A DNA stretch of 64,000 nucleotides from Phycomyces nitens (lineage: Eukaryota > Mucoromycota > Mucoromycetes > Mucorales > Phycomycetaceae). Below are positions 5,456 through 27,618 of this stretch, in pieces; the stretch's first letter is position 1, and each line of letters opens with the position of its first letter. The stretch spans positions 1,364,001 through 1,428,000 of the forward strand of contig JAHRBC010000002.1 of the NCBI GenBank assembly GCA_022702545.1. The letters are read 5' to 3'. The notes under the pieces are model-generated. The model ran no database searches and had not been told where the DNA came from. It saw nothing but the letters and a program-made list of their open reading frames with translations. The position numbers and the translations under genes were made by a program.

Positions 5456-5893
5456 ATGCATATGGATTCTTTTTTCCCGATTTTCCCTTTTTCTCTCTCT
5501 TTTTACTTTTTGCTTCCTTTATACTCTCTGGTAAGTACTTGAAAATTTTTCACGCAATTAAAGATAATCTTTAACATCTTTTCAATTATCTAAAAGGTGT
5601 CCTATAGTCACTTTTATTCAAGCTTGCACAAGAAAAAGGTAAATGGGCGCACTATTTTTTATTGCTGTTGCTAATCAGTAATCTTCATCTTGTAGATTCA
5701 AAACAACTCCTTTCAATTGCAATGGCCAAAGATGACAATGATGAAGTCGAATGGACGGAATGTACTTGGTATGTTCGAATATTTTATCACTATTAATACT
5801 AATATATTCTGTCTTTACTATCAGCCTTTTTATCAAAGAAAATTGCCGCGTTTTAACAAAGACATGGAATATCCAACAAACCAGTTTGTCTTG
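5456..5893 (+). other. Third transcription unit of E1: micro-exons with hydrophobic start
   Basis: Divergent from the accessory gene. A start at 5456 (or 5462) opens a very hydrophobic 25-codon exon (5456-5530: Phe/Leu/Pro/Ser-rich, signal-peptide-like). It is followed by GT-AG bounded exon candidates at 5597-5638, 5696-5768 and 5825-5893. The first three join in frame, while the fourth closes in TAA after a 1-nt loss relative to E2. The same plan of leader exon plus short exons recurs at the same place in E2, A, B and D, and in weaker form in C. Function unknown. Splicing is predicted only by eye. Confidence 0.45.
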
Positions 5894-6539
5894 GTAAGTA
5901 ATCAGTCATTCCTATTGCTTTTCTAACAGAAAAATATAGATATCTTTTCTATTACGCGTACACCTTTTTTGATTGTTATATCATTATCTATCTTGAGATA
6001 CTGTTTGGTATACACTGCAAAAGAGGGGCTGTTTGTAGTACCAGAAATCCGGCATTATGGTACTGAAAAGGGGTGGGTTTCACCTAGTTTAAATATTTTT
6101 TCAACTAGGAGGCATGCTAGCTTCACAGGTACCTCGGTGTCGTGGTTTGCAGTAGTAGAAACATGTAAAAATGTGCCGCAGGTGAGGTCTGTTAGCACTT
6201 TCGGTATATAGATCTGATTTGGAACGATGAAAAAAAGTATTTAAAAGAACGGTTCTATTTTGGTCGTCTCAACGTGGTCGTTGAAATGTTCAGATACGTC
6301 ACATATCTTTATGTTGCGAGTTGTAGAAACTCGATGTATCTACTAGTGGTTACTACCCAAGACCAATCAAATCAAACACTTGAAAGCCTCTTTATTCTTC
6401 TTCACCAGTAATATATCACCCATTATTTGATTTCCCGTTTATATTGGATTGGTAATGGTTTACGCTTTTATTTTTATTGGAAAGAATAGAATGTTTCTAG
6501 GTTTAGGGTCTATTATTACGCCTATTCCTATGCCTAGCC

Positions 6540-7434
6540 GTTTCTACCCGGTTGCTTGCTGCTATTTGGATGGAATATTTTTCTACATAAAAAATACCTG
6601 CAAAAATATGAATATCCAGCAATTTTTTGGGCTGCAGGAGTGTTCTGTAAAAGATAAAGAAGTGTTAATGATGTGGGGTACAAAGAGAAAATTTTTGTGT
6701 GTCAAAAGATACTTACATTGCAAGAGATGGGCAAGAGTGCGCAAAGGGGACTTGAATTTTAAGGCTGGATGGGCTGTGTGGCAGGTTTTACTATAAAAAA
6801 GGGAATAAAAATTAATATGGGTGAACAGAGTGATGATATATTTAATTTACATACCAGGAGCCAAATGGGTTATCAAAGTAGGGGGTATGGTGTGTAAAGG
6901 AAGCCCAAGTGAGTCTATAAAACACATAATAATAATAATTAATAAATAATCTGAATAATATTTTGGATAAGCAAAAAGAGATTTATAAAGAATATTACCT
7001 TTATGATTACAATTGCGAATGATGGAGGAGGCCGATGGCATGAATAGAAAGGGCAGTCTACAATGGAATAGAGTCAGAGAGGGAACAAGTATGATTGAAA
7101 GAAAAAATTTTACCTGGTGCCGATGGCATCCCTATATAAGTTGTTTGGCCAATCTAAAAGAGAAAGTGAAAATAATTTTTATCAAGATGATGGTACCAGT
7201 GAATGCGGCCAGTGAGTATTTGTCTAGATGGCCATTGTGGAAAGGATGAGTTGCAATGGGAGCGCACATCTATGAAAAAGAGGTTAATTTGTGTGTATAA
7301 AGAGGTATAAAAAATGTCTTACCAGAGAAAGGCACCAATATCAAAAAAGCAAGGAAAAGGAAAAATAAAGGGAACCAAAAAAAGGAGAGAGTCTGAAATT
7401 TTTTTTCACCTTTGAAGCATGCTGCGGAAAGCAT
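6540..7434 (-). other. Third transcription unit of A: seven candidate micro-exons, hydrophobic leader
   Basis: Starts with ATG at 7434. Exon 1 (7434-7323) encodes about 37 residues: a short polar start, then a long Phe/Leu-rich hydrophobic run ending LVPFS, typical of a signal peptide or membrane segment. GT-AG bounded segments follow toward the 6013 terminus, mirroring B's exons of 73, 40, 59, 60 and 74 nt and a last one. One frame reads MPSASSIIRNC in the fourth segment. A has A6 in the leader (7343-7348), where B has A5 and is frameshifted. No family recognised. Phases between exons 1 and 2 are not clean, so the coding model is tentative. Confidence 0.42.
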
Positions 7435-7566
7435 GATGGATTGAGCCCAAAAACAATATCAAGGCCGATTTGCATCTCAGTGCTTCAAGACAATAGAGGA
7501 ACATCTTTATAGTCATTCAAAATGCCTATATATAACGGCCTTTTTGATATTCAACCTCTCTTACCT

Positions 7567-7594
7567 TTACACACACACACACACACACACACAC
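7567..7594 (+). repeat. (AC)n microsatellite between the two divergent units of A
   Basis: Thirteen AC dinucleotides lie between the accessory gene start (7707) and the micro-exon unit start (7434), so within the shared upstream region. The same repeat lies at the same place in B (about 24331-24357) and D (about 43851-43879). Confidence 0.85.
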
Positions 7595-7706
7595 TTACTC
7601 ACCCACCCAACAAAACAGTTTTTGTATGTATATTATATTTATTTTTATTTCAATTGAACAAAAACTAATAATTATAATCGAAATATACTTTACCATATTC
7701 TAGAAA

Positions 7707-8895
7707 ATGGTTAACCAAAGAAGATCGATTGCTCCTCGTCCCACTCCTGCTCCTGCTCTCACTCCTGCCAACATGGAGCAAATTGTCGAGATGCTCTCTG
7801 GAATTCAAGACAACATGACCAGAGTGGAAGATAAGGTCACCAATGTAGAAGGCGAGTTGGTGACCTCCAACACCAAACTGGTAACGATGGATGCCAGACT
7901 TGGTGTCATCATTGCTGGAACCCGTGAAGCCATTAAGGCCATTGACAATTTTGGAGAAGAGGTTCCTGCCACTGCCACCAGTGAACCCAGCAATGTTGCG
8001 GTTGTGGAGGCCATTGGTTTGGCCGGACCCAGCCATAAAACATCAGTGGAGGTCAATGTAAGCATTATACCTTATACTATATTATCAATTCATTAACTTG
8101 TTTACTATATCAGAGAAAGATCCGTGAGTTCTTGTGGGAGCCAAATTTCCATGCAAATACTCCAGCAGAGATCTTGGCCAACACTAACAAGCCCAGGTGG
8201 AACACGGATGTTCACTTTAATGTGACTCCAAACAAGGAGTTAGTGAACAGGCTTCTTGTCATCCTGGAGCACAAGTTTGCTGGTGATGGGATGAGAACCA
8301 AGGATCTTCGTGATAAGCTCCACAAAAACTTCATCAACAGATGCAAACAGGAGAAGATCTCTGCTGCTGCAAAAGAGATCACGAACACACGTTCACGGAG
8401 AGCCAGACGTGCTGGTGAAGTAAGTTATCCTTGATATATTAAAAATCTATTCCAAAAAATAATAACAAGGTTATTATTAGAACCACAAGCGCCGAACAAA
8501 GGCATACGGCAGCAACATGGTTGCCATCAACCAAGAGATGGGCCGGGATTGTGCCAATGCACTCCCCAAGGAAGCAATGTCCGGAGGAGAATCGGATGAC
8601 GAAGTCTCCGAAACTGGAAGAAGACGTGTGATTCGGACCGTCCGCCCAAGTTGGAGAAGCGATGAAGTGAGTTGTTGAGCTGATTATAAATAATATTTTG
8701 GATGACTTTAGATTACTAATGTGCAATTGATAGTACAACCGATTTATCCAAGTCATTGATAGATTCGTTGGTCTCCAACTTGGAGCAAACTCTCACCAGT
8801 TGCTGTCAAGGGTTTATGGCAGAACTGTGGACGTGGCAGTCCCGACCAATTTAAATCCCAGTCTTGCTCAGTGGGCTCTTAGACATGGGCTTTAA
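7707..8895 (+). CDS. Conserved Plavaka-element accessory protein of A, four exons, intact
   Basis: Exons 7707-8057, 8114-8419 (306 nt), 8481-8666 and 8734-8895 join in phase 0 for 334 residues. The N-terminus is basic (MVNQRRSIAPRP) and followed by a predicted coiled coil rich in Glu, Thr and Met. Exon 2 has an IREFLWEPNF...NKPRW block, a helical-looking middle, and a basic end (NTRSRRARR) that could be nuclear localisation or DNA contact. Exon 3 is acidic, then closes on VRPSWRSDE. Exon 4 (YNRFIQVIDRF) ends WALRHGL. It converges on the transposase, and about 120 bp separate the stops. Intact here; the B copy has lost one C at the position of C8564-8567. Function unknown, with a TnpA-like DNA-binding role possible. 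Confidence 0.75.
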
Positions 8896-9016
8896 TAAAA
8901 TAATTTTTTTTATCTCTCCATCTATTTTTTTGACACGCGTTACGTTTTGACGACATTTATAAAGGCAATGCTATTTCTGTTTGTTCTTTATAAAAGAGAA
9001 AAGATATTTTTTTTTA

Positions 9017-9565
9017 TTACACGCAAAGTTTCTTTGGCAAAGGAATGACCAGCATCCTCTTTATACCATTTCGGCTTGTGTGTGTGGCAGTCGCAACTTC
9101 CAAAAGAAGGCGATGCACTGGCAAGATGCACTCATTGGTAGCAGGAGAAAAACTGGGCAAACAGATGTCAACACCTTCATCTTCGCGTGATCGTTCATAA
9201 CAGACACCATTCCATCGCACAAAGGCAAAGACATGCTGGCTTTGATAGCCACGACGATTTAAACGGACAGAGGCAGAGAGAGGCGGCGTAAACTGATGAA
9301 CAAAAATATACTGTATCTGCCCAGTATAGGCGGTCTGGTTCTCACCAGTGCTGCTACCAAACAAAGCTTGTACACGAGATCCACCATTTCCAGAGCTATT
9401 GTGTCCACGATAAACTTGGCCAAGGAGATTTATCGATTTCAGCTTCACGATCTGATTGTCAACAAACAACGAAGAAGAAGTGGCATGTTGATAATGCTGG
9501 AGGGTGTCAATGTCATACGTATCCACATAGTAAGCCAACAATTGAGGATAGTCAATATCACTCAT
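9017..9565 (-). CDS. C-terminal part of the A transposase as a separate overlapping ORF
   Basis: 182 residues. It begins at an ATG that overlaps the stop of the main transposase ORF as ATGA (stop and start share bases at 9562-9565). The sequence (MSDIDYPQL, then YTGQIQYIFVHQF and HVFAFVRWNGV, ending VIPLPKKLCV) is the C-terminal domain that is fused in E1, C and D. The split comes from one C missing in a C5 run shortly upstream; six C would keep one frame. Both A and B have it, so it predates their separation. Either the frameshift inactivates, or the downstream ORF is reached by frameshifting or re-initiation. Confidence 0.7.
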   Translation of the reverse strand: MSDIDYPQLLAYYVDTYDIDTLQHYQHATSSSLFVDNQIVKLKSINLLGQVYRGHNSSGNGGSRVQALFGSSTGENQTAYTGQIQYIFVHQFTPPLSASVRLNRRGYQSQHVFAFVRWNGVCYERSREDEGVDICLPSFSPATNECILPVHRLLLEVATATHTSRNGIKRMLVIPLPKKLCV

Positions 9566-12121
9566 TTTTGTGGCAGACTTTTGAAGCAGAGGAAACGCAG
9601 AGGGGGAAGAGGCTCGTTACCCTTGATTGGGAATTCAGAATTCTCTGAAGCTTCGATGAAATCCAGCAATCTGAACGGGCGTCGTGTTGGTGTTGGTGTG
9701 GGTGTGGGTGTGGGGGTAGGGATAGAGGCAGAGGTGGAGGCAGAGAGGAGGTTTGAAAAGAGAGAAGTGAAGATGTCTTGGCTTGGAGATTGTAGAACAG
9801 CATTGACATAATCATTCTTGAATACGTCCTGGACAAATTTCCGCATGTAGGTTGCCTCAAACCCATTCTTTCCATTCGTGCTCACGTTCTTTAGCAATCC
9901 GTTGTACCTCTCAAACCCAAAGAGCCAATAGCCGTACACCGGTCCAAAATCATTGATGGTCTTATGAAGATGGAGGTGCAGGTGCATGTTGCAGGTGAGA
10001 AGACTTGGAGGGTAAAGGCGCTCGCACTCTTGGCAGAATTGCTGAAGGTGGTGATGGGCATTGTCAACATCCTGGAAGGACACAGATGGCTTGACAATCA
10101 GGCGGCAGGCATCCACAAAGTTCATCCAACTGTTAAACTTTTGACGCAGGAGAACGGGCTTCAATGCAACAGGCGAATATACCAGCACCCAAGATTTCCA
10201 CTCGTCTGCTTTCATGAATGGAAATCCCCTGGCAATCTTTGTCTTTAGTGAACTGTAATCACTTGGCAGCTCCATGGTGTCTGCTATCTCCTGCATCACA
10301 AGAAGATCGTCATTGGACAAATCACCACCAGAGATCCAGTTTTCAACCATTCTCTTGGCGGTTCCCAGGAAGAGGTTGTGCATGGGGTCCACCACAGTTG
10401 CGCGGACAAGATCAAGATACTGGAGGCGGTGAAGCTCTGACCATCGTACACCATTCTCAACTTCAAGTCCATGCCTTTCGGAAATCGTCTGGGCATCTTT
10501 CCAAAGTGTTGCATGGTGTCTGTTGTCAACTGATGTCCGAAGAGACCATTGTGAATAGTCAAATCCACGGAAATCCACCTGGTTTGACCCCTCCAAACGA
10601 GAGAACTGACGATTGCACTTGTAGCATGCATTGGTGCTGTTGTGTGCCGTAAACCCACTCGTCTTCCTTGCAGCTGGGATATCGCACGCCACCATCAACA
10701 ATGCACCACGGACATTGACACCAGACGGGCACTCAAAGGTTGGGATCCTTATTCCAACAAACAACTGCTCCAGTTCATCGACCAACGGCTTGAGATAACT
10801 GTTGATCTCATCTGTCTTTGGCTCCTTGGGTCCAGGCATCAGACCGACGAGAATAGTATTTTCGGCCTTGAACCTTTCCTCCCTAGGCAAATTATTGATT
10901 ACAAGATAGATGGCACCACAAGAATAGCTGATTCCATCAAAGGGCTGGAACCAGTCAATGTTCAGTGTCAGCATCAAAGAACGTGGATCTGCAACGAACG
11001 AAACACCACCCATGTCCTGGAGACCCTTCCACATTGCACCATCGTAGATATCGCACATGGTGTCTACAACTTTTAGCTCCTGGTTCCAGTGACGAATCTT
11101 GGTCTCAAAATCCGGGCGGAGGAAAAGGACTCTCAACGCCTGCTTGACGGACTGATAGACGTACGATCTCTTGGCACCAGATGACGATTGCTTCATCAAT
11201 TGACAACCACATACAGATTGGGAACCGAGCTTAGCAGAATCGCACCGAAGTGGAGCAGACCCAGCTTCCTCATACACCGTGTGGCAATCCTGGCACACAA
11301 CGAATCTCTTTACACCCTTGGTCAAGGCAGTGAAACCCGTCATGCTTTGGAGACCAGAAAGGCTTGAGGGCAATTGGAAGTCCTGTCCGTAAATCGTCAA
11401 GAGTTTGTTGATGAACTCAATCAAGACAACAGCACCCTTATCGACCACATAACGGGATGCAAACAGAACAACGAAAATGGCAATTGCTCTGTGCACTGGG
11501 TTTTTGGGCATACCAGGAGTAGCAAAAGGGTCTATTATTTAAAAAGGAAAATTATTAACACTCAATTTTTGCTTGCTTTTGTATTATAGCTATTCAATAC
11601 TGACCTTCACTATCAAACTCCTCGACCTCAATCTCCTCGACATCGGCTTCATCATCACTGTCATTGTCAGAGTCGTTGGTGATTTCGGCACCATCGCCAT
11701 TGACCTCATTGTCAAGTTGATCGGCATCAACCATTTGGTTATAATCCCCAAAAGGTAAGCTGGGCTGACTGTCAACTGCCACGGATTCGGATTCAATAAT
11801 CGGCATTGCTGCAAATATGGGTTAGATTAGTTTATTACTCTGCACTGGTTTTCAAATAAATATATTTTACCCTCAACGTCCAAATCCATCATATCACTTT
11901 GTGTGCCTGAGTTCAATTGAAAAATACAAGTTATTATTGCGCAGTAAATGAAAATTAACACTAGTATACATACTGCTCTCAAATTCGCCAGTTTCTTCAG
12001 TTCTTGCTCTCTTACTATGGCGTTGGTAAGTGCGCTTGGATACAATAGTGAATCCTTGCTGGTTATTGCTGCATTTGTTGCAGTAACAGGCAGTAGTGTT
12101 TTGTGTGGAAATAGAAGACAT
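9562..12121 (-). CDS. Plavaka/CACTA-like transposase of A, N-terminal and catalytic part
   Basis: Exons 12121-11974, 11906-11871, 11808-11605 and 11531-9562, all phase 1. Exon 1 has the zinc-like CYCNKC...QRH head, and exon 3 is very acidic. The last exon carries CQDC, NIDWFQPFDG, VACDIPAARK, NACYKCNRQF, DPMHNLFLGTAKRM and GFERYN, the same ordered blocks as E1. A Pro-Thr microsatellite follows, and reading then leaves frame in a C run and stops after FKSLPQK. The remaining 182 residues are the overlapping ORF at 9017-9565. The sequence matches B throughout. Roughly two thirds of residues match the D transposase and fewer match E1 (estimated by eye). Confidence 0.85.
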
Positions 12122-12363
12122 AGTTTATATTATTTGATTGTGAGATAAAAAAGGAAACAAGTGCTACATATTTTTATTTGCTGTCATTTTATAGACAAGA
12201 AAAAGGCTATTGTTCTTTGATCCTTTGCCCGAACCAATAGGATGCATCAAAATTATACTTTTTATTTTTAAAAAAAATAATGTCTGAGATGAAAAAAAGC
12301 TCTATGTTTCTAGTACCCATCTGCACCATTTATACTAGGTGAAATCGAGGGGTTTTTCCAGTG

Positions 12364-12651
12364 TAACCCATTCTTTTAAAAGAATGGTTGTAAAAGAATA
12401 GCAGAACCCATTATCAAATAGAGTACTATAAAAGAGAGGTTAGTGTATAACGGAAGCATTTTTGGTTGGATAAAAAAAACAGTAGTTATGTTACCAAAAT
12501 GGTAGTTATCTGCCAATTATTTATTAGCAAAAAACGGTAGCTGCTACCAAACTCGCCTTACACAGGGTCATATCTACCGTTTTTCCCCACCAAAAAATTG
12601 GCAGTTATGTTACCAAAACGGTAGATAACTGCCGATTTCTTAGCCGTAGTG
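12364..12651 (-). repeat. R4 left end (inverted segment): CACTACGG terminus and subterminal repeats
   Basis: On the minus strand it starts at 12651 with CACTACGGCTAAGAAATCGG and contains repeated (A)CGGTAG/CTACCGT motifs, then a stretch matching R1 at 27850-27960. It breaks at element A. The continuation of the same R copy is at 25912, beyond B, which is one of the two proofs of the A/B inversion. No gene. Confidence 0.8.
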
Positions 12652-13463
12652 TATTATATGATATTTTAATAAAAGAAGAGACATTGTACTGCGGTTAATG
12701 CTCAGGAAGATGTTACTGCGCATAAAGAAGTACTGCAGTTAATCATCTTCAGATTTTACAGATTTGTTGTTTTGGATCTGAGTTGTTCTTCTAATGCTAT
12801 AACACAGCCAATATTGGTCAAACCCACTGGGAATCGTAAATGAGGATAAAAGAGTAAAAAGAGGATAGAAAGATAGATAATTTTTATTCAATGAAATATT
12901 GTCCTCTTTTATATCTTTTCTAAACCTACTCAGCCATCATAAATGTCTGTTTTGGTTTCTAATCTACTTTTGTTATAACTAATGTCTTCTAGGTCTTCAG
13001 AGAGCAAAAGGGAATCAATTCGGTCATCGTTCTCAAAAGTGTCAGAGTTGACATAGCGAATAATAACCCAGATAATCAGGTACCCAATCGGTAATGCTTT
13101 TAACATATGTCTTCAAGGTTATACCGATTGGTTCCCCTTTTTGTAAAACCAAGACATATTCTCATCGCCTCTCATAAAGAGATAACCAATGTGTCTTGAG
13201 TAAAAAGTAATTAGTTTAGATAATTTCACTTATAAAATCTGTATAAATACTACAACGATTTGTATCAATAAAAAAGGGCATTCAATTCTCTATATTCCTA
13301 TTTATCCTAAACGTCCTAGTTGGTGGTGATCTATTGCAAAACTCATCTAAGTCAAGCATTAGCAAGATACACCCAGTCGAGACTTGACAAAAGAGAACTC
13401 TCTGTAATTGTCATCCTGATTGGCTGACATTAATTCAGGCATGACAAGATTCATCAAAATAAT
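12652..13463. repeat. T1, degenerate LTR-like backbone repeat
   Basis: Shares blocks with T2: 12660-12760 matches the reverse of 41430-41520 plus 61013-61045, while 12930-13039 and 13390-13440 match 37690-37734 and 41297-41410 in the same direction. It contains a CCCACTGGGAATCG segment similar to 61160-61180. It was split by a solo LTR (13040-13389) and, at its right edge, by H1. No coding potential. Confidence 0.6.
13040..13389. mobile_element. Solo LTR (350 bp) with 4-bp TSD AAAG
   Basis: Runs from TGTCAGAGTTGACAT to GAGACTTGACA (TG...CA), flanked by AAAG at 13036-13039 and 13390-13393. The empty site is present at 41353-41370 (TTCTCAAAAGAGAACTC). Related to, but diverged from, the solo LTR at 37735-41292. 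No internal retroelement sequence remains. Confidence 0.8.
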
Positions 13464-13655
13464 AGAGAGGTTTGGGGATTTTATTTTCACTTTCACATTG
13501 TACGTCATTATGACGTACCATTTTTTTATTTTCACTTTATTTTCGCTTTGTCTTCACATTTCCTTTTTTGAAAAACGCGTTTTAAATTCTATCAGTCAAA
13601 CTTCAATCCATAATACCTTTCTTTATTCTATTAAAAACACTTTACTTTATTAAAC

Positions 13656-14961
13656 ATGGAATCCACTCGTTATCTGGCAGCAGTTGCAATTCTCTACGAT
13701 GACATAAGCAATGCAATCATAGAGCAAGACGAGGCTGAAGACGAACTGTTCATTCGTTTGAACCGTGATTCCAGAGCTTATGCATTGCATACCCGACAGA
13801 CGCCTTTGGAGATCTCCTCATTGGACAATGACACTTGCAAGTCATTGTTCAGATTTACTTACACTGAGATTCAGCTGATAGCAAGAGTGTTGGGCTTCCC
13901 TGAGCAGGTTTCTTTCCGCAATGGAACAAGCCAAAACTTCTCATTGCACAGAGATCTATCACTTTCTATCATGCTTAGAAGGTTGTCATATCCTTCGCGG
14001 CTGATGGACTTGGCTTTATTGTTTAAGATGAACAAGACAACCATTAGTGTTGTCTTCAATTCTATGATTGGATTGCTGTATAGCCGGTACCATGAAGGGA
14101 TCAGATTCAACAAAAGGCATCTGCATCCCTTCAACCTTGCGAGATTTTCTGATGCCACAGAAAGAAAAGGTAAGTAATTGATTTTGCAAAAGACACTTGA
14201 TAATGGTGCCATCTCTAATTATGTATCTTTTATCAAGGATCTTGCTACAAAGGGGTCATTGGATTCATCGACGGTACGCTGAATGGCATAGCACGTCCAG
14301 TCAGGCACCAGGAGCGTGTCTACAATGGCCATGTTGTATGTATCCTAAATAACTATATAAAACTTCAGGACTTTAATTGTTAAATTCTGTGATTATTTAG
14401 CGATACCATGGTCTAAAATATCAAGGTATCGTAATGCCAGATGGCATAACAGCCAGCCTGAGTGGACCTTTTGCAGGATCTGTCCACGACCAGAGTATGC
14501 TGGTGGACAGCGGCATGATTGGTGAACTCCGGGAAAGCTTGGACAAGAGAGGTGATGGTGGAGAACTGTATGCCATTTATGGCGATCCTGCATACAGTTC
14601 TTCCGACATTCTCATCAAGCCTTTCCGGAATAGTAAGTTTGTAATGAATTATTATATAGTAAATGTATTAATCTTTTCCATTACAGGCCAGACAATGCCT
14701 AGGGTTGAGAAAGACATCAACAACACGATGTCTACTCTCAGGATTGTGGTTGAATGGGAGTTTGGCCATGTTGCTAATTTGTTTGCCTTTGTCCGGTATA
14801 GACCAGGGCAAAAGGCATTGCTGAGCAAGTGTGCTCATTTTTATTTGGTTGCTACACTGATGAAAAACATACACATTTGTGTTAATGGTGGGCAAACATC
14901 AAAACACTTTGATATTAGCCCACCATCACTTCAAGAGTATATTTCTGAGATAACGCCATAA
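13656..14961 (+). CDS. PIF/Harbinger DDE transposase (DDE_Tnp_4-type), four exons, intact
   Basis: Exons 13656-14169, 14238-14335, 14401-14632 and 14687-14961 give 372 residues ending in TAA. The catalytic triad is visible: Asp in IGFIDGTLNG (near residue 180), Asp in YGDPAYSS (near 265), and Glu in VVEWEFGHV (near 315). The N-terminal half has an HTH-like region ending LLFKMNKTTISVVFNSM. It would act with the product of the convergent gene, since Harbinger transposition generally needs a Myb-like partner for DNA binding or nuclear import. The decayed H2 copy (55245-56375) is collinear with it. Confidence 0.92.
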
Positions 14962-15131
14962 TAAAAATAATACCTTTAAACATACTGTATACTTATAACA
15001 TATATTTATTTATTGTTTTTGTGTCTAATACTAGGGGAGACAAAAAAGGGACTAGGAGAGAGAAAAAAGGGGACTAGGGGAGACAAAAAAAAAAGGACTA
15101 GGGGAGAGGGTGTTGACTGTTACAAAGGCAT

Positions 15132-16132
15132 TTATGGCAACTGTCTATTTGCCTTCTCTAAAAAAGCATTTAGGTTACCGATCATTCCACGAAGATCGGT
15201 ATGCAGCAGGAGAGACTGCTGCTGCATGATGTTTTGTGTCTCCAGGACTGCCAGAAGACGCTGGTTTGTCTTCTTCTGTTCTTCCAACAGCCCATCTTGC
15301 TTCTCTGCATATTTTGCAATGGTTGCAGAGGCACGCTCCATTATATTGATGGCCCTTGCCTCATGGGCCATCTTCTCACCAGTGGTCTTCATTATGACCT
15401 CCAAGTCATGCTTCTTACTTGACATATATGAACCTGGGTTCATACGGGCTCGCTTTGACTGTGGCTCACCCAACATCTCGTCCTCATCGTCATCACTGGT
15501 TCTGTCAAAAACTATATCCGGGCCACCTGCCAACATCTGATTGACGTTTATTTCGTCGGCAATTGATGTGGTTCTTCTTTCCATCCCACATTGAGAGTTA
15601 GAGACCAAGTAGGCCTGCTCAACTCGTTTTTTGGCAGCTGCCTTAGCGAGATTCTTGTCAGCCATGGCTCTGGACTCCTCACTTCTTTCCATCTTTGTAT
15701 ATAAAAATGTTATGATATGTGTAAGTGATAGCCTGAATGTGGATAATCAAAATTTATTATTATAAAAATAGAGTTTCTTACCAAAGAGATGAGTGAACAC
15801 ACAAGATGTTCAAGTCTTGTCTCGGAGTCATTGCTTCCTGTCCCATAGGTAAGATCGTGGATGATCTTCTCTTTCATTGCCTTGGTAAGACTATCGATCT
15901 TCCTGTCGATGGCTGTCTTTCCAAGCTTCTTGCACTCTTGGTCTGTTTGATTGACTGCATTATATACATTTTCCCATGCAGCTGCCTTTTCACCTCTTTT
16001 CAAATCAAAAGGGTGGAACTCGATTGTTGCTTCAATAGCAGCAATTTCACGGTTGGCGGTCCACTTGCCGTAAGCTCTACCATTTCCATTGCTAGAAAAA
16101 GAGGAAGAGGTGTTTGCAAATTCGTTGGACAT
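15132..16132 (-). CDS. Harbinger accessory protein (Myb/SANT-like position, coiled-coil C-terminus)
   Basis: Exons 16132-15782 and 15692-15132 join in phase 0 for 303 residues. The N-terminus is Ser/Asn-rich, then a helical region (YGKWTANREIAAIEATIEFH ... AAWENVYNAVNQ) sits where a Myb/SANT-like trihelix is expected, followed by the TGSNDSETRLEHLV motif. Nearly the same motif (TGTNDSETTLENRV) occurs in the H2 homologue. The second exon is rich in Lys, Glu and Met and ends in a long coiled coil. The gene converges on the transposase. Classification as Myb-like rests on position and helix pattern, not on a clear three-Trp repeat. Confidence 0.75.
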
Positions 16133-16966
16133 TTTATTTTATGGGTTTTGGGAGTATTTGAGTATATATGAGAATATAAAAGCATGCCTAATTTCTTAAA
16201 CTCTTCTTCTTTTATAGTAGTTAGAATATCATGACATCTTCTAAGTATCATAACTCATTTTATATATCCTCGGCATAGTATATGCTCCCTTTGTTCTTCT
16301 CAGACTACATATATCCTCCAAAGGAGTACAGTTCACTTTGGAGGATTTCTTTCAACCCTTGCACAAGGCATACCCTTGTGCATTGTATTTCATCATCGAT
16401 ACTGCTTAGAAGAGTTTTACAATAAATTGGTATATGCCTCTCTAGTGCCAAAGACTTTAGTTAAAGCAGTAATAGAATCTTTATTCTTATCTACCTTTAT
16501 TTATTGATCAAGCCCTTATTATCTTGTTTTATTCATCTATCCCACTGTCACCAACTTGTAACCACTCTTAGCAATACTTATACATATACTTCTTGATATA
16601 TTTATCTTTTATATATGCATTTTACTATATTTTTTTACTTTTAGATATACCTGAGCACTATCACAGTGTCCTACCCCTTCTATTGTATACGTTTTGCCTT
16701 TTGAACTTGTTGGAAACTATCATTTATCAATTGTATCTGTCAAAATTACCACGGCAAAAACTAATTCGTCAGATTTATCCTTTTCTGTAATATTATTGGA
16801 TGTTTCGGCTAAATACCAAAGGGAAAATAAGAGAATTATTTTCTCATTTTGTACTTTTAACGCGAGTTATTTTCCCTTTTTTGTGCTACCTCGGAGCTTA
16901 AACCATCGAAAAATAGCCTTTTATGGGAATGCGAAAATGAAAATAAAATCCCCAAACCTCTCTAAT

Positions 16967-17019
16967 GTCCAACAAAAGATATACAATTAACGTTGTAAAT
17001 TAAACAATACTTTAGAATT
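16967..17019. other. Short spacer between H1 and tRNA-Phe
   Basis: AT-rich, with no gene. It holds the right flank of the H1 target site (GTCCAACAAAAG). Confidence 0.6.
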
Positions 17020-17092
17020 TGCCACAAGTGTGGATTGAACACACGACCTTTAGATCTTCAGTCTAACGCTCTCCCAGCTGAGCTATTGCGGC
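17020..17092 (-). tRNA. tRNA-Phe (anticodon GAA)
   Basis: 73 nt on the minus strand, starting GCCGCAATAGCTCAG. The acceptor stem GCCGCAA pairs with TTGTGGC (one G-T), discriminator A. D-stem is GCTC/GAGC, anticodon stem TTAGA/TCTAA with loop CTGAAGA, T-arm GTGTG-TTCAATC-CACAC. No intron. Boxes A and B are both well formed. No clear T4 terminator directly downstream. It is probably the only host gene in the window. Confidence 0.95.
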
Positions 17093-17400
17093 ATACTCTT
17101 TCGTGACACGTGTGTTGTGAACAGGTTCGGTTTCGACCATGAAGCCGGACCAAGGGCCCGGAACAGGCCTAGGAGGGGTCGGAGGCCGGACCAGTCCAAA
17201 GAAGAAGTCCGAGCCGAGTAAGGATGGCCAATCCCCGAGTTTCTTTATTTTATTTTATCACATTTTATTATTTCCTTTTTTATACTCTTTCCTTTTATAT
17301 TTCCTTTGTGAATCCTTTCTCACTTTCTTGCAGGATTGCATCATTCTGTACTTCTTTAGTTTATTTCCCCTACTTCTTTGTCTTACCCTTTTCTTTACTA
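17093..17400. other. Spacer upstream of tRNA-Phe with a small GC-rich island
   Basis: 17100-17235 is distinctly GC-rich (CCGGACC and GGCCCGG-type words), unlike its neighbours. 17236-17400 is pyrimidine-rich and AT-rich. I see no convincing gene, only chance open frames. Confidence 0.5.
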
Positions 17401-18396
17401 CACACCCAAGGAGTATTTCGGGTTTTAAAAGCTCATTTCTTTTTGGACATCCATATATAGTAATTTTCGGGAGAGTTTTTTGCACCTATTTAATCTCAAC
17501 AGCCAATAACAATGCAGAAATAAAGCATTAATAATATAGTTTATAACAGTTTTCATTGGATAGAATTTCACCAACAAGGATTATTTTCGGGTTTTCAAAA
17601 CTCGTATTTTTTGATTATTCTTAATATAGTAATTATCGGGAGAGATATTTTTTCCAAAAAAATCAAAATTGCAAATCAAAATGCAAAAATTATTGATAGT
17701 ACAAATTATAGACAGCATTCATTGGATAGATTTATAGGTTTACAAATGATTTTTATTGGATAAAATTCTCATAGCTTTGGGCCAGGGGTTTCTTTCATAA
17801 AATGATGCAATGAGGGCATTCCTACCTTGTCAGTTGCTTGATACTCTTTCAAGATGATATGAATGAGTGCAGAATCAAATAAGTCTGACCCAAAAGGCAG
17901 GAGAGCGGTATCCATTATTTGATAGAATGTCTGGACAAGATAGTATATACAAACCTAACTAATGATAATTAGCAAACAAAACTCGAATAGATAGATGATA
18001 ATGTACACACTACCTTACCATACATATTGTTCACAGTTGATTTTATCTAACAAAAGAAGTATGAAAGTTAATAATCAACAAGAATACATAGGGAATAAAG
18101 TGTTTAATTTTATATCTTATAATATTTTACGCAGCAACTCTTTAAAAACGCGTAATTATATTTGTTGCTAGATATATAGGAGTCTTATACACACCTTAAA
18201 CAAAGAGGATGGGCAATAGATGGGCCTTGTACATTGAATGAGCTACTGCTATCTCAAACTGTAAACGAAATGCCTATTATAAAAGAAGACATTCATTTAG
18301 TTTTTAGTTGAACACAGTGCAGACTTGAATATCTTACAGCAACATAAAGCAGGCTCGAGTAGTCTATTTAATAGAGACAGAAAAAGAAGCTTTGTT
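17401..18396 (+). mobile_element. Z', left end (996 bp) of a second Z-type transposon
   Basis: About 99% identical to 56601-57596. I count about eight substitutions by eye. It begins with the Z terminus CACACCCAAGGAGTATTTCG after a TA dinucleotide. It contains two diverged subterminal repeat units (CGGGTTTT...TAGTAATT.TCGGGAGAG). It stops exactly where R3 begins (CACTACGG at 18397), so R3 inserted into Z'. The rest of Z' lies outside the window. Noncoding. Confidence 0.85.
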
Positions 18397-18895
18397 CACT
18401 ACGGCGGAAGGACCGGTAGCTGTGCCGAAAACGGTAGCATAACTACCGTTTTTTATGATTTTAGAGCACTTTATCTCCGCAGATTGTGGTTGAAAGGTAA
18501 TGTCATCGATCCCGAATCATAAAAGTTGCATGGAATGTCTTTTCATCAGGCAATGAGGTAGTTGTAGTACCATAGAAAGGGCTCGTAAGTTTTTAGGCAA
18601 CCTTGTTTATTGAAATGAGCATTTTATTTGGTGTTAAAGATGTTGCGCATTTTTGAGAAAAATAATTTTTCGCCTGTGTGAACAAAACGGTAGTTATGCT
18701 ACCGTTTTTTTGAAACCGAATTTTTATTTTTGACATTATTAGCCATTTTATTTTATTTTATTTGGTATTGATATTTATAAGGAAAGAAAAAAGAAAAAGA
18801 AAATTTTTATAAAGTGGCAAGGTTCCCCATGGTCACACACAGATTGTCATTAAACACGTAATATGGTGCAATGATAAAGAACTGATTACTACTCG
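18397..18895 (-). repeat. R3 right end (inverted by the A/B event)
   Basis: Starts with CACTACGGCGGAAGGACC, the right terminus of R elements in reverse, and matches R2 from 37979 and, in reverse, the end of R1. It contains two blocks of paired CTACCGT/ACGGTAG motifs and the last codons of the transposase remnant. It joins 1-508 once E1 is removed and the segment is flipped. Confidence 0.85.
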
Positions 18896-19562
18896 CACTG
18901 CAAAAATACCCCCGATTCCCATATGTGATAGTATGTAAAATTCCGAGTGAAATAAAAAACAAATTCTAGAATTAAATTGAAATGTTATCTTGCATATATA
19001 AAAAACAACACATATAAGATAATGAAGTAATTCGGTGGATATAAAGCTCTGCTTTTGGACGTGTAGGCTTGTTAAACTCAAGAGTGTACAGAACTATAAC
19101 TGAAAGTGTTATCTTATTTCTTTTTAGTCAAACGTTACATGAATTATTTTTTCAATATCAATAAAAAAATCTATTTTTTAATAGATCAAGATGCAAACTT
19201 TTCGACTATTTTCTGCAAACTATTCACCTATTTTCTAAAGGACGTATATTTATTGGTTGTTTAATCCGTTTGACACTTTAAACACTTTCAATTGGGGGTT
19301 TATTTTATACTTCTTTATAAATAGGCCATGGAAAATAGTTTACGAATAGATTTTTATTGATAAAATATTTTTCTCATAATATACAGCCTAGTAATTTGGT
19401 CTAGATTCATGGCTATAGCTATATTGATACTAATTTTTTTTTACCTTTTGAAACACGGGTAGAGAGAATGACTGATTCATTGACTATCATCTTGAATAAC
19501 TGGAAAAGTAGTTGCTCAAACAGAGTAGACAACTAAGACTTTGAGACCGAATTTTCAGGTAT
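18896..19562 (-). mobile_element. E1 right end, detached by inversion
   Basis: Begins CACTGCAAAAATACCCCCGA at 18896 and ends at 19562 against element B. Read on the minus strand it continues E1 from 6012: ATACCTGAAAATTCGGTCTC aligns with the collinear E2 sequence at 52168-52186. The flank CGA at 18893-18895, read in reverse, completes the E1 TSD. No gene; AT-rich noncoding end. Confidence 0.9.
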
Positions 19563-19804
19563 CACTGGAAAAACCCCTCGATTTCACCTAGTATAAATGG
19601 TGCAGATGGGTACTAGAAACATAGAGCTTTTTTTCATCTCAGACATTATTTTTTTTAAAAATAAAAAGTATAATTTTGATGCATCCTATTGGTTCGGGCA
19701 AAGGATCAAAGAACAATAGCCTTTTTCTTGTCTATAAAATGACAGCAAATAAAAATATGTAGCACTTGTTTCCTTTTTTATCTCACAATCAAATAATATA
19801 AACT

Positions 19805-22364
19805 ATGTCTTCTATTTCCACACAAAACACTACTGCCTGTTACTGCAACAAATGCAGCAATAACCAGCAAGGATTCACTATTGTATCCAAGCGCACTTAC
19901 CAACGCCATAGTAAGAGAGCAAGAACTGAAGAAACTGGCGAATTTGAGAGCAGTATGTATACTAGTGTTAATTTTCATTTACTGCGCAATAATAACTTGT
20001 ATTTTTCAATTGAACTCAGGCACACAAAGTGATATGATGGATTTGGACGTTGAGGGTAAAATATATTTATTTGAAAACCAGTGCAGAGTAATAAACTAAT
20101 CTAACCCATATTTGCAGCAATGCCGATTATTGAATCCGAATCCGTGGCAGTTGACAGTCAGCCCAGCTTACCTTTTGGGGATTATAACCAAATGGTTGAT
20201 GCCGATCAACTTGACAATGAGGTCAATGGCGATGGTGCCGAAATCACCAACGACTCTGACAATGACAGTGATGATGAAGCCGATGTCGAGGAGATTGAGG
20301 TCGAGGAGTTTGATAGTGAAGGTCAGTATTGAATAGCTATAATACAAAAGCAAGCAAAAATTGAGTGTTAATAATTTTCCTTTTTAAATAATAGACCCTT
20401 TTGCTACTCCTGGTATGCCCAAAAACCCAGTGCACAGAGCAATTGCCATTTTCGTTGTTCTGTTTGCATCCCGTTATGTGGTCGATAAGGGTGCTGTTGT
20501 CTTGATTGAGTTCATCAACAAACTCTTGACGATTTACGGACAGGACTTCCAATTGCCCTCAAGCCTTTCTGGTCTCCAAAGCATGACGGGTTTCACTGCC
20601 TTGACCAAGGGTGTAAAGAGATTCGTTGTGTGCCAGGATTGCCACACGGTGTATGAGGAAGCTGGGTCTGCTCCACTTCGGTGCGATTCTGCTAAGCTCG
20701 GTTCCCAATCTGTATGTGGTTGTCAATTGATGAAGCAATCGTCATCTGGTGCCAAGAGATCGTACGTCTATCAGTCCGTCAAGCAGGCGTTGAGAGTCCT
20801 TTTCCTCCGCCCGGATTTTGAGACCAAGATTCGTCACTGGAACCAGGAGCTAAAAGTTGTAGACACCATGTGCGATATCTACGATGGTGCAATGTGGAAG
20901 GGTCTCCAGGACATGGGTGGTGTTTCGTTCGTTGCAGATCCACGTTCTTTGATGCTGACACTGAACATTGACTGGTTCCAGCCCTTTGATGGAATCAGCT
21001 ATTCTTGTGGTGCCATCTATCTTGTAATCAATAATTTGCCTAGGGAGGAAAGGTTCAAGGCCGAAAATACTATTCTCGTCGGTCTGATGCCTGGACCCAA
21101 GGAGCCAAAGACAGATGAGATCAACAGTTATCTCAAGCCGTTGGTCGATGAACTGGAGCAGTTGTTTGTTGGAATAAGGATCCCAACCTTTGAGTGCCCG
21201 TCTGGTGTCAATGTCCGTGGTGCATTGTTGATGGTGGCGTGCGATATCCCAGCTGCAAGGAAGACGAGTGGGTTTACGGCACACAACAGCACCAATGCAT
21301 GCTACAAGTGCAATCGTCAGTTCTCTCGTTTGGAGGGGTCAAACCAGGTGGATTTCCGTGGATTTGACTATTCACAATGGTCTCTTCGGACATCAGTTGA
21401 CAACAGACACCATGCAACACTTTGGAAAGATGCCCAGACGATTTCCGAAAGGCATGGACTTGAAGTTGAGAATGGTGTACGATGGTCAGAGCTTCACCGC
21501 CTCCAGTATCTTGATCTTGTCCGCGCAACTGTGGTGGACCCCATGCACAACCTCTTCCTGGGAACCGCCAAGAGAATGGTTGAAAACTGGATCTCTGGTG
21601 GTGATTTGTCCAATGACGATCTTCTTGTGATGCAGGAGATAGCAGACACCATGGAGCTGCCAAGTGATTACAGTTCACTAAAGACAAAGATTGCCAGGGG
21701 ATTTCCATTCATGAAAGCAGACGAGTGGAAATCTTGGGTGCTGGTATATTCGCCTGTTGCATTGAAGCCCGTTCTCCTGCGTCAAAAGTTTAACAGTTGG
21801 ATGAACTTTGTGGATGCCTGCCGCCTGATTGTCAAGCCATCTGTGTCCTTCCAGGATGTTGACAATGCCCATCACCACCTTCAGCAATTCTGCCAAGAGT
21901 GCGAGCGCCTTTACCCTCCAAGTCTTCTCACCTGCAACATGCACCTGCACCTCCATCTTCATAAGACCATCAATGATTTTGGACCGGTGTACGGCTATTG
22001 GCTCTTTGGGTTTGAGAGGTACAACGGATTGCTAAAGAACGTGAGCACGAATGGAAAGAATGGGTTTGAGGCAACCTACATGCGGAAATTTGTCCAGGAC
22101 GTATTCAAGAATGATTATGTCAATGCTGTTCTACAATCTCCAAGCCAAGACATCTTCACTTCTCTCTTTTCAAACCTCCTCTCTGCCTCCACCTCTGCCT
22201 CTATCCCTACCCCCACACCCACACCCACACCAACACCAACACGACGCCCGTTCAGATTGCTGGATTTCATCGAAGCTTCAGAGAATTCTGAATTCCCAAT
22301 CAAGGGTAACGAGCCTCTTCCCCCTCTGCGTTTCCTCTGCTTCAAAAGTCTGCCACAAAAATGA
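19805..22364 (+). CDS. Plavaka/CACTA-like transposase of B, N-terminal and catalytic part
   Basis: Exons 19805-19952, 20020-20055, 20118-20321 and 20395-22364, with phase-1 introns. The protein matches A, with the zinc-like CYCNKC head, acidic exon 3, NIDWFQPFDG, VACDIPAARK, CYKCNRQF, DPMHNLFLGTAKRM and GFERYN. It ends early after a Pro-Thr repeat (CACACC microsatellite at 22205-22245) because of the short C run at about 22319. The stop at 22362-22364 overlaps the start of the next ORF. Confidence 0.85.
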
Positions 22365-22909
22365 GTGATATTGACTATCCTCAATTGTTGGCTTACTATG
22401 TGGATACGTATGACATTGACACCCTCCAGCATTATCAACATGCCACTTCTTCTTCGTTGTTTGTTGACAATCAGATCGTGAAGCTGAAATCGATAAATCT
22501 CCTTGGCCAAGTTTATCGTGGACACAATAGCTCTGGAAATGGTGGATCTCGTGTACAAGCTTTGTTTGGTAGCAGCACTGGTGAGAACCAGACCGCCTAT
22601 ACTGGGCAGATACAGTATATTTTTGTTCATCAGTTTACGCCGCCTCTCTCTGCCTCTGTCCGTTTAAATCGTCGTGGCTATCAAAGCCAGCATGTCTTTG
22701 CCTTTGTGCGATGGAATGGTGTCTGTTATGAACGATCACGCGAAGATGAAGGTGTTGACATCTGTTTGCCCAGTTTTTCTCCTGCTACCAATGAGTGCAT
22801 CTTGCCAGTGCATCACCTTCTTTTGGAAGTTGCGACTGCCACACACACAAGCCGAAATGGTATAAAGAGGATGCTGGTCATTCCTTTGCCAAAGAAACTT
22901 TGCGTGTAA
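22361..22909 (+). CDS. C-terminal part of the B transposase as an overlapping ORF
   Basis: 182 residues starting in an ATGA overlap. It differs from the A copy by one residue (His for Arg in ILPVHHLLLEVA, a CG to CA change at 22815). It carries the domain found fused in E1 and C (IQYIFVHQF, HVFAFVRW, PLPKKLCV). It may be a detached pseudogene piece or be expressed by frameshift or re-initiation. Confidence 0.68.
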   Translation: MSDIDYPQLLAYYVDTYDIDTLQHYQHATSSSLFVDNQIVKLKSINLLGQVYRGHNSSGNGGSRVQALFGSSTGENQTAYTGQIQYIFVHQFTPPLSASVRLNRRGYQSQHVFAFVRWNGVCYERSREDEGVDICLPSFSPATNECILPVHHLLLEVATATHTSRNGIKRMLVIPLPKKLCV

Positions 22910-23030
22910 TAAAAAAAAATCTTTTCTCTTTTATAAAGAACAAACAGAAATAGCATTGCCTTTATAAATGCCGTCAAAACGTAACGCGTGTCAAAAAAAA
23001 ATAGATGGAGAGATAAAAAAAATTATTTTA

Positions 23031-24218
23031 TTAAAGCCCATGTCTAAGAGCCCACTGAGCAAGACTGGGATTTAAATTGGTCGGGACTGCCACGTCCACA
23101 GTTCTGCCATAAACCCTTGACAGCAACTGGTGAGAGTTTGCTCCAAGTTGGAGACCAACGAATCTATCAATGACTTGGATAAATCGGTTGTACTATCAAT
23201 TGCACATTAGTAATCTAAAGTCATCCAAAATATTATTTATAATCAGCTCAACAACTCACTTCATCGCTTCTCCAACTTGGGCGGACGGTCCGAATCACAC
23301 GTCTTCTTCCAGTTTCGGAGACTTCGTCATCCGATTCTCCTCCGGACATTGCTTCCTTGGGAGTGCATTGGCACAATCCCGGCCCATCTCTTGGTTGATG
23401 GCAACCATGTTGCTGCCGTATGCCTTTGTTCGGCGCTTGTGGTTCTAATAATAACCTTGTTATTATTTTTTGGAATAGATTTTTAATATATCAAGGATAA
23501 CTTACTTCACCAGCACGTCTGGCTCTCCGTGAACGTGTGTTCGTGATCTCTTTTGCAGCAGCAGAGATCTTCTCCTGTTTGCATCTGTTGATGAAGTTTT
23601 TGTGGAGCTTATCACGAAGATCCTTGGTTCTCATCCCATCACCAGCAAACTTGTGCTCCAGGATGACAAGAAGCCTGTTCACTAACTCCTTGTTTGGAGT
23701 CACATTAAAGTGAACATCCGTGTTCCACCTGGGCTTGTTAGTGTTGGCCAAGATCTCTGCTGGAGTATTTGCATGGAAATTTGGCTCCCACAAGAACTCA
23801 CGGATCTTTCTCTGATATAGTAAACAAGTTAATGAATTGATAATATAGTATAAGGTATAATGCTTACATTGACCTCCACTGATGTTTTATGGCTGGGTCC
23901 GGCCAAACCAATGGCCTCCACAACCGCAACATTGCTGGGTTCACTGGTGGCAGTGGCAGGAACCTCTTCTCCAAAATTGTCAATGGCCTTAATGGCTTCA
24001 CGGGTTCCAGCAATGATGACACCAAGTCTGGCATCCATCGTTACCAGTTTGGTGTTGGAGGTCACCAACTCGCCTTCTACATTGGTGACCTTATCTTCCA
24101 CTCTGGTCATGTTGTCTTGAATTCCAGAGAGCATCTCGACAATTTGCTCCATGTTGGCAGGAGTGAGAGCAGGAGCAGGAGTGGGACGAGGAGCAATCGA
24201 TCTTCTTTGGTTAACCAT
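23031..24218 (-). pseudogene. Accessory gene of B, frameshifted
   Basis: Same four-exon gene as in A: 24218-23868, 23811-23506 (306 nt), 23444-23260 and 23192-23031. The run of four C in exon 3 of A is three here (GGG at 23359-23361 on the plus strand). That shifts the frame after NALPKE and removes the WRSDE and C-terminal segments. Otherwise it is almost identical to A, so the loss is very recent or a sequencing error. Confidence 0.75.
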
Positions 24219-24490
24219 TTTCTAGAATATGGTAAAGTATATTTCGATTATAATTATTAGTTTTTGTTCAATTGAAATAAAAATAAATATAATATACATA
24301 CAAAAACTGTTTTGTTGGGTGGGTGAGTAAGTGTGTGTGTGTGTGTGTGTGTGTGTAAAGGTAAGAGAGGTTGAATATCAAAAAGGCCGTTATATATAGG
24401 CATTTTGAATGACTATAAAGATGTTCCTCTATTGTCTTGAAGCACTGAGATGCAAATCGGCCTTGATATTGTTTTTGGGCTCAATCCATC

Positions 24491-25390
24491 ATGCTTTCCG
24501 CAGCATGCTTCAAAGGTGAAAAAAAATTTCAGACTCTCTCCTTTTTTTGGTTCCCTTTATTTTTCCTTTTCCTTGCTTTTTGATATTGGTGCCTTTCTCT
24601 GGTAAGACATTTTTTATACCTCTTTATACACACAAATTAACCTCTTTTTCATAGATGTGCGCTCCCATTGCAACTCATCCTTTCCACAATGGCCATCTAG
24701 ACAAATACTCACTGGCCGCATTCACTGGTACCATCATCTTGATAAAAATTATTTTCACTTTCTCTTTTAGATTGGCCAAACAACTTATATAGGGATGCCA
24801 TCGGCACCAGGTAAAATTTTTTCTTTCAATCATACTTGTTCCCTCTCTGACTCTATTCCATTGTAGACTGCCCTTTCTATTCATGCCATCGGCCTCCTCC
24901 ATCATTCGCAATTGTAATCATAAAGGTAATATTCTTTATAAATCTCTTTTTGCTTATCCAAAATATTATTCAGATTATTTATTAATTATTATTATTATGT
25001 GTTTTATAGACTCACTTGGGCTTCCTTTACACACCATACCCCCTACTTTGATAACCCATTTGGCTCCTGGTATGTAAATTAAATATATCATCACTCTGTT
25101 CACCCATATTAATTTTTATTCCCTTTTTTATAGTAAAACCTGCCACACAGCCCATCCAGCCTTAAAATTCAAGTCCCCTTTGCGCACTCTTGCCCATCTC
25201 TTGCAATGTAAGTATCTTTTGACACACAAAAATTTTCTCTTTGTACCCCACATCATTAACACTTCTTTATCTTTTACAGAACACTCCTGCAGCCCAAAAA
25301 ATTGCTGGATATTCATATTTTTGCAGGTATTTTTTATGTAGAAAAATATTCCATCCAAATAGCAGCAAGCAACCGGGTAGAAATGGCTAG
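24491..25390 (+). other. Third transcription unit of B: seven candidate micro-exons, leader frameshifted
   Basis: GT-AG bounded segments at 24491-24601, 24655-24727, 24771-24810, 24867-24925, 25010-25069, 25134-25207 and from 25280. Each ends in a good donor (GTAAGA, GTACCA, GTAAAA, GTAATA, GTATGT, GTAAGT) and begins after a T-rich AG acceptor. The hydrophobic leader has A5 instead of A's A6 on the coding complement, giving an early TGA. In D the sixth segment is open where A and B have TAA. Coding status uncertain, but the exon-intron texture is clear. Confidence 0.42.
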
Positions 25391-25911
25391 GCATAGGAAT
25401 AGGCGTAATAATAGACCCTAAACCTAGAAACATTCTATTCTTTCCAATAAAAATAAAAGCGTAAACCATTACCAATCCAATATAAACGGGAAATCAAATA
25501 ATGGGTGATATATTACTGGTGAAGAAGAATAAAGAGGCTTTCAAGTGTTTGATTTGATTGGTCTTGGGTAGTAACCACTAGTAGATACATCGAGTTTCTA
25601 CAACTCGCAACATAAAGATATGTGACGTATCTGAACATTTCAACGACCACGTTGAGACGACCAAAATAGAACCGTTCTTTTAAATACTTTTTTTCATCGT
25701 TCCAAATCAGATCTATATACCGAAAGTGCTAACAGACCTCACCTGCGGCACATTTTTACATGTTTCTACTACTGCAAACCACGACACCAAGGTACCTGTG
25801 AAGCTAGCATGCCTCCTAGTTGAAAAAATATTTAAACTAGGTGAAACCCACCCCTTTTCAGTACCATAATGCCGGATTTCTGGTACTACAAACAGCCCCT
25901 CTTTTGCAGTG

Positions 25912-27618
25912 TTATTCTTTATTATAGAATATCTTGATTTAATTCATACCGTATTTTGCACACAATTATTATAGAAAAATACTTAAAACTAATGCTATTT
26001 AATATTATAAAACATATATAGTATAAACCTTTGTTATAAGCTATACACGCATAATAATATTACGTTGATATATATTAGATGATCCTTAGTATTCATTCAA
26101 TTGCTAAAAATTTATTGTGGTTAGAAAAATAAGCGATCATATAAACCTAGTACATTATTTTGTACTGTTTACAAGTATATATTATGCTTGTCAATTACTG
26201 TACCATGCCTCTTGTTTTGAATGATTATACTGAAAGGGATCTCCAGATATAAACACTATATGTAATAGGAGGTAAATAGGATATGCACGGTAAAATTAGT
26301 TGAAGAATAATATAATTATTAGACAATTGTCTTACCATAGAAAATCAACTTTGGGATATTCAAATCATGAGATTCAAAACAGATTCAAATCTCATTGTAG
26401 CAAACAGAGTAATCAGCTCATTAGAAAAGAAAAGTATATATCTTACAGAGATTGTCAAGTGTAAAAAGGACAAACCGTATTGTAATATAGCCGTAAAAAG
26501 TTTTCGCTCTTTTGTTTCTGGGGAAAAAAGAGCGAGCTGCATTTCATTCCTAAATCAAAGGTAATCGAGCTAAAGATGGTTCAATTGGGATGTCAATCAG
26601 ATGTTTATAACCGTGCCGATCTTACATGAAGGAAGCTCATTTGGTTTTATTTCAAAGAGTCAATACAAAGACAAGACAAGAGAAGCAAAAAAAAAGAAAA
26701 AAGAAAGCACACTAAGCATATACTAAAAAATGCTACGGGGCCAATAAGAGTTGCCTAAAAGAACAATCTTAAACCCTTGTTTTATTGCTTAGCACTTACA
26801 CAATACTCGTTTTTGGCGGTATAGAGCTATATTAAAGAGTAGAAATATTATGTTGGCATTATATTAGCAATAGATGATCAACAAAGCAATCACCCATTGC
26901 ACATCTGTCATGATTGCTAATTTGGTGCCATCACCAAGTTGCAACATATCTTCAAAAAAGAAAAGAACGGCTTGAACTTTGCTGTTGTATTGTGATAAAT
27001 AATATTGTATTAACTACAATACATATTCAAAACATATATTAAAGAGTCAACTTACTTTATTATTCTCTATTATTTATTTATGAGCCTGATTATTGATTGT
27101 AAAGCCCTTTCAAAGACGTTTGGTGCACAGCATTCTATAATATTTATATTGATTCTGTGATAGACCATTATATTATTTTATGGCCATAGGATAGTGTTCT
27201 TGTCAATTAAATAGTGTTTGATAATATAAGACCATGCTTTTAGTTGATGCTGCGATTCATAGTCAAAGCATGGTTTGAGAAAAATATTAACAAAAACAAA
27301 GGTTATTCTCTATGGGTTGTCTTGTGCCGTATTTTTCGATCTTGGTGATAAAGCACATTATGTCAATGAAGTTTACTCTTTTCTTTGAGACCACCACTTG
27401 TATCAATCGCTAACTTACCAAGTCAATCAAGGTATTTGTCCAATTGATCCCTTTTTATACCAAATATCCATTTACAAAATATGAAAAATATATACAAACT
27501 AACCACTTTAACAAACTATTGACTTTTGAATATTCCTTTGGGTTGATCAATCTTCATTTGATTGCAAAGGTTTTTGGTGAAAATATTAGTAAAATAGCTT
27601 GCTGTCCAATACTTGCCA
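25912..27618 (+). repeat. R4, body of an old R-type element
   Basis: Continues the R4 left end now at 12364-12651. It aligns block by block with R1 from about 27960 to 29480, but at much lower identity and without the 225-bp tandem duplication of R1/R2. AT-rich, many stops, no gene. After about 27180 I see no match to R1 and no other signal. Confidence 0.65.

Follow-up and report, generated by a model that had tools for sequence, protein, structure and literature searches.

The window analysed here is a stretch of 64,000 nucleotides from Phycomyces nitens (assembly GCA_022702545.1, 48.98 Mb in 11 contigs; contig C4, 1364001–1428000), in which two near-identical transposons, A (6013–12363, plus strand, 6351 bp) and B (19563–25911, minus strand, 6349 bp), enclose a segment of 7199 bp (12364–19562) that is turned relative to the ancestral order. 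CACTA elements (En/Spm, tnp2) have terminal inverted repeats (TIRs) beginning with CACTA or CACTG and generate a target-site duplication (TSD) of 3 bp. A and B are complete DNA transposons of this type: in A, a tnp2 transposase domain (Transposase_21, PF02992) is encoded within 9562–11538 on the minus strand (E-value 4.2e-20; 72.3 bits, cut-off 28.6), the TIRs are CACTGCAAAA and CACTGGAAAA, and the termini run from CACTGCAAAA to TTTTCCAGTG. Similar CACTG termini are found on the elements E1 and E2 of the window and on others. Direct 3-bp TSDs are perfect in 10 of the 13 other full-length copies listed for the A family and in 10 of the 15 listed for the E2 family; as the genome-wide family searches scored the best candidates only, 15 full-length copies per family are a lower bound. 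Both A and B read CACTGCAAAAGAGG at one end and TTTTTCCAGTG at the other, in opposite orientation, and thereby agree to the base with the element limits drawn in a first-pass annotation of this DNA. They are 99.84% identical, differing by 4 substitutions and 4 insertion/deletion (indel) events in 6.35 kb.

As assembled, neither copy has matching flanks, since on the plus strand A lies between ATA and TAA, and B between TAT and TTA. The ATA at 6010–6012 is the left TSD of A, and its partner is the TAT at 19560–19562, the reverse complement of the second ATA copy; likewise, the TAA at 12364–12366 is the reverse complement of the first TTA copy of B, whose right TSD is the TTA at 25912–25914. When 12364–19562 is turned, A is flanked by ATA on both sides and B by TTA on both sides, which bears out base by base the pairing proposed in the first-pass annotation.

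The repeats that are broken at the edges of the segment are also healed by this turn. A was inserted in E1, a CACTG-ended tnp2 element whose left part occupies 509–6012 (plus strand) and whose displaced and inverted right part occupies 18896–19562 (minus strand). Its intact relative E2 (46664–52830, plus strand; TSD CAA/CAA) served as comparator. The two parts of E1 are continuous only after the turn, as had been claimed from the letters alone, and the 1197 joined bases then align to E2 without a break at 86% identity. The uninterrupted comparison sites used throughout are paralogous empty sites in the same assembly, that is, in one genome. Among 81 candidates, all 40 genomic places scored contained the healed E1 junction of 282 bases whole, with the top score and 100% listed for six of them. 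On the other side, B interrupts the repeat R4, the start of which, ending with CACTACGG at 12651, is displaced and inverted (12364–12651, minus strand), while its remainder is followed to the right of B over 25915–27031 (plus strand). The claimed rejoining of R4 was likewise reproduced: its healed junction of 287 bases is present at all 40 of the places scored among 323 candidates, with 96–98% identity, every match spanning at least bases 4–287.

A further layer, beyond those described earlier, is provided by the repeat R0 and its own host H. R0, a member of the R family to which the comparators R1 (27685–30804, plus strand; used for R4 and R0) and R2 (37979–41156, minus strand; flanked by TCT/TCT) belong, is the host of E1. 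It starts about 8.7 kb to the left of the window and enters it at 1–508 (plus strand), and its terminal part is displaced and inverted at 18397–18895 (minus strand), where the flanking GTT pairs with AAC at the far end of R0. The turn joins 1–506 with 18895–18397, upon which 395 of 402 bases equal R2 without a gap and R0 acquires the TSD AAC/AAC. H (17398–18396), the repeat into which R0 was inserted, matches 56598–57901, and by this match it is continuous with the sequence beyond R0 only after the turn. The TSD of E1 itself pairs with one mismatch, being CAA on the left (506–508) and CGA on the right; the uninterrupted target in both R1 and R2 is CGA.

For the assembly, the inversion of the segment relative to the ancestral order is thus established. 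Because the TSDs pair and the broken repeats heal after the turn, the listed order is either derived from the ancestral one or an assembly mis-join. Judged from the sequence, the nesting sets the order of events as H, R0, E1 and A on one side, and R4 and B on the other. The inversion would be later than both A and B or, if a single transposition both copied the element and turned the segment, simultaneous with B. The agreement of four independent junctions had been put forward; the agreement stands, while the independence does not, as there are two healed adjacencies, each visible at several layers.

Other features adjoin these elements. Inside the turned segment, 13469–16964 holds a PIF/Harbinger-like DDE_Tnp_4 element with AGAGAGGTTTGGGG ends and three other full-length copies listed at 99% identity, and a tRNA-Phe (gaa) gene lies near H at 17019–17093 on the minus strand. 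Directly before the left end of R1, 66 bp of the R right end stand in inverted orientation (27619–27692; 37682–37692), and the flanks of R1, TTT and ACT, are unpaired. Just left of the window, a relative of A with about 80% identity (L026:910–7260) is inserted in R0 with its TSD intact (TCA/TCA). In the window, Pfam matches also include an integrase/RNase H fragment (61501–63054) besides the tnp2 and DDE_Tnp_4 transposases, and the transposon genes, as read from the sequence, have intron-like interruptions; these features mark the DNA as eukaryotic.

A second case of the same kind was found in the TSD survey. With five mismatched copies in each of the A and E2 families, a reciprocal swap occurs in exactly 1 of 10 pairs per family, and both are close inverted pairs. 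The pair of the E2 family, P1 (C7:18540–24700; L047) and P2 (C7:64485–70647; L048), lies in opposite orientation on another chromosome of the assembly. P1 stands between CAT and TAA and P2 between ATG and TTA; once C7 24701–64484 (39,784 bp) is turned, the flanks become CAT/CAT and TTA/TTA. The healed left junction is uninterrupted at two other loci (L025 and L011), and the right one at nine further places, of which the best matches all 343 bases at 99%; the 13 matches listed for the latter also contain two from the split site itself and two partial ones that stop short of the junction. P1 and P2 mark a second inversion in the assembly, of 39.8 kb.

No reciprocal partner was found within the family for the mismatched A copies L013 (TTG/ATA), L014 (TAT/GCG) and L016 (TCT/ATA), nor for the E2 copies C10:2203871 (TAA/CAA), C5:2258157 (ATT/GTA) and C1:4132780 (AAC/TTA). 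The unlike triplets of these six full-length copies may go back to further exchanges, to deletions or to translocations.

Twelve inverted pairs within 75 kb were compared, of which A/B and P1/P2 are swapped and ten are not. Both members are intact in six of the unswapped pairs (E2 family, C7:3470152/3497407; X family, C7:85226/126444; A' family, C4:1281246/1355910; R family, C8:2335323/2364802, C4:7573169/7611648 and C4:2322619/2384039), and four consist of one intact and one mismatched or truncated member (X, C1:389799/465304; R, C4:7542107/7573169 and C7:3455887/3512621; and R1/R2 in the window). The pairs were chosen by eye from best-candidate listings, with some further pairs, such as X C7:85226/144988 and several R pairs, left aside, so that the 2 in 12 should not be taken as a rate. 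The unswapped E2 pair C7:3470152/3497407 differs by 73, and the unturned A' pair is nearly identical, being listed at 100% after rounding.

The variants along the copies were then compared. A and B are identical over 9112–12363 of A (19563–22814 of B), a tract of 3252 bp that carries variants absent from the 13 other copies and is a candidate for the crossover and conversion tract. They share private variants at 7334, 8261, 8271, 9765, 11740 and 12106 and a 9-bp deletion at 11173, none of which is present in any of the 13. Counting substitutions only, they differ by 2 in 6013–7333 and by 2 in 8301–9111; in these intervals A is the same as three and five other copies, respectively. The sites at which A and B differ include 6135, 6540, 8953 and 9111. 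The last 4.95 kb of P1 and P2 are identical, and there the seven others compared, out of 13 further full-length copies, are each 17–50 substitutions away; over the whole element they differ by 3 substitutions, vs. at least 20 to each of the same seven. These 3 fall in the first 1.1 kb, where P1 and P2 are as unlike as ordinary members (P1 to the seven, 2–9; P2, 1–8), and no private substitution is common to them before position 1215. The swapped copies are thus sister-like over most of their length and unlike in patches, patchy in identity but without reciprocal chimerism. In both pairs the 3′ part of the element is the perfectly identical portion and the 5′ part holds the differences; these face away from the loop in A/B and toward it in P1/P2, from which no mechanism is derived.

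A runs test of difference sites vs. shared private sites, at chosen sites, gave 60/792 = 0.076 for A/B, 2/84 = 0.024 for P1/P2 and 0.013 for the two together; when the A/B indels are dropped, the combined value is 0.029. Homopolymer and other small indels (A/B 7343, 8564, 8924 and 9007; P 387, 576, 592 and 1211) were omitted at first because those in homopolymers may reflect sequencing noise. With every event included, a rank test on positions gave 0.13 for A/B and 0.008 for P1/P2, and under even placement the P1/P2 differences crowd at one end (substitutions, 0.018; all events, 0.0004). In this weak test, the patchwork leans toward two older insertions that underwent a crossover accompanied by a long conversion tract.

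Based on these observations, the reading that we favour, with a probability of roughly 0.58, is ectopic recombination. Two oppositely oriented copies of one CACTA-type transposon would have inserted 7.2 kb from each other, with E1 receiving A at ATA and R4 receiving B at TTA, after which a crossover within the element, by homologous repair, would have turned the segment between them, leaving the copies partly homogenised and the TSDs exchanged; the 3.25 kb identical tract would be the conversion tract of this crossover. The ancestral order, both TSD exchanges and the patchy identity of the copies are observed; that A and B were separate prior insertions, that the crossover was homologous with such a tract, and that the assembled order is real in the organism, we infer. 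What would be expected of ectopic recombination is seen in that elements of one family lie in opposite orientation at both ends, their TSDs are exchanged, and each target is single and uninterrupted at paralogous empty sites.

Several results weigh against this account. A plain crossover between unlike copies predicts differences on both sides, and one side has none, so that a long conversion tract must be added. The sharing of private variants by A and B extends over much of the element, which is what a one-step duplication would predict, and P1 and P2 have in common a private deletion of a single base (T run, position 576) within their otherwise unlike part. With every event counted, the runs tests weaken to 0.40 (A/B), 0.043 (P1/P2) and 0.087 (combined), and the A/B substitutions alone show no significant clustering against even placement (p 0.28). 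Moreover, free flip-flop would lead one to expect swaps in more than 2 of the 12 close inverted pairs, and the near identity of the A' pair occurs in a pair that is unturned.

The swapped TSDs had been taken as proof of ectopic recombination. The proof holds for the inverted order in the assembly; by themselves the swapped TSDs do not show the mechanism, because the ends of one element acting together on sister chromatids, or replicative transposition within the same molecule, would leave the same split TSDs and two inverted copies. Such a one-step aberrant transposition (hybrid-element, sister-chromatid or replicative intramolecular) into TTA in R4 would copy the element, invert the segment and split ATA and TTA between the copies, and we regard it as possible but on balance doubtful. 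It would require a reaction unusual for a CACTA element, and it expects identity over the full length with later mutations spread evenly, whereas the P1/P2 differences are crowded at one end, P1 and P2 have no common private substitution before 1215, and the chosen-site runs tests lean against it, more weakly when all indels enter. By reasoning, however, it predicts precisely the observed flanks, and in both swapped pairs the two members are each other's nearest among the copies compared, as judged by the private variants of A/B against the 13 and the 3 substitutions of P1/P2 against at least 20 to the seven, while the unswapped E2 pair is 73 apart. One step followed by conversion would also be the simpler account of why both swapped pairs are so alike; that both inversions (7.2 kb on C4 and 39.8 kb on C7) arose in this way through the CACTA transposase, by the sister-chromatid or the replicative route, with later gene conversion making them patchy, seems to us unlikely. 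For same-site hybrid-element insertion, Delprat et al. (2009; PMC2775673) state that the same swapped TSDs are left, and that the copies are identical after hybrid insertion and chimeric after ectopic recombination.

A mis-join, in which the true chromosome is unturned and the inverted repeat led the assembler along the wrong path, appears improbable. The 99.84% identity of A and B and the mere 3 substitutions between P1 and P2 would invite such an error; however, 49.0 Mb in 11 contigs is presumably a long-read assembly, and as the closest A/B difference is 3.25 kb from the segment edge, reads of about 4 kb could set the orientation. Other inverted pairs, including the A' pair, were assembled unturned. 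Chance pairing of the flanking triplets is refuted: the triplets are AT-rich, and a left triplet equals another copy's right triplet 4.7% of the time, but the double agreement has a probability of 0.0022 per pair, and both healed junctions of the window match uninterrupted sequence at all scored places.

The TSDs and the uninterrupted paralogous sites thus reveal insertions, targets and turn, a clean record of repeats rearranging a chromosome, and the two swapped cases beside ten unswapped close inverted pairs in one genome make rate and mechanism testable. The inversions resemble the products of several known reactions. Similar to replicative intramolecular inversion by bacterial Tn3 and IS6/IS26, two inverted copies flank a segment with donor and target duplications split; this is a reaction of replicative bacterial transposases, and we are not aware that it has been established for any CACTA element. 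An inversion flanked by two opposite copies with split TSDs is likewise left by hybrid-element insertion (P element) and by sister-chromatid or alternative transposition (Ac/Ds), and from these the copies are expected to be identical over their full length, whereas A/B and P1/P2 look patchy. The closest likeness is to the Galileo-mediated inversions 2j, 2q7 and 2z3 of Drosophila buzzatii, where, as described by Delprat et al. (2009; PMC2775673), opposite copies of one DNA transposon also lie at the inversion ends with TSDs exchanged and are not simply identical. Galileo is of the P superfamily with 7-bp TSDs, its inversions are natural polymorphisms, and its chimerism is seen in reciprocal variants; in contrast, A and B are CACTA elements with 3-bp TSDs around a 7.2 kb segment within nested repeats, and their patchy identity is without clean reciprocal chimerism. 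The rearrangement is accordingly of a known, ordinary kind, as with Galileo in Drosophila, of which A/B is a new and unusually well documented example and P1/P2 a second instance.

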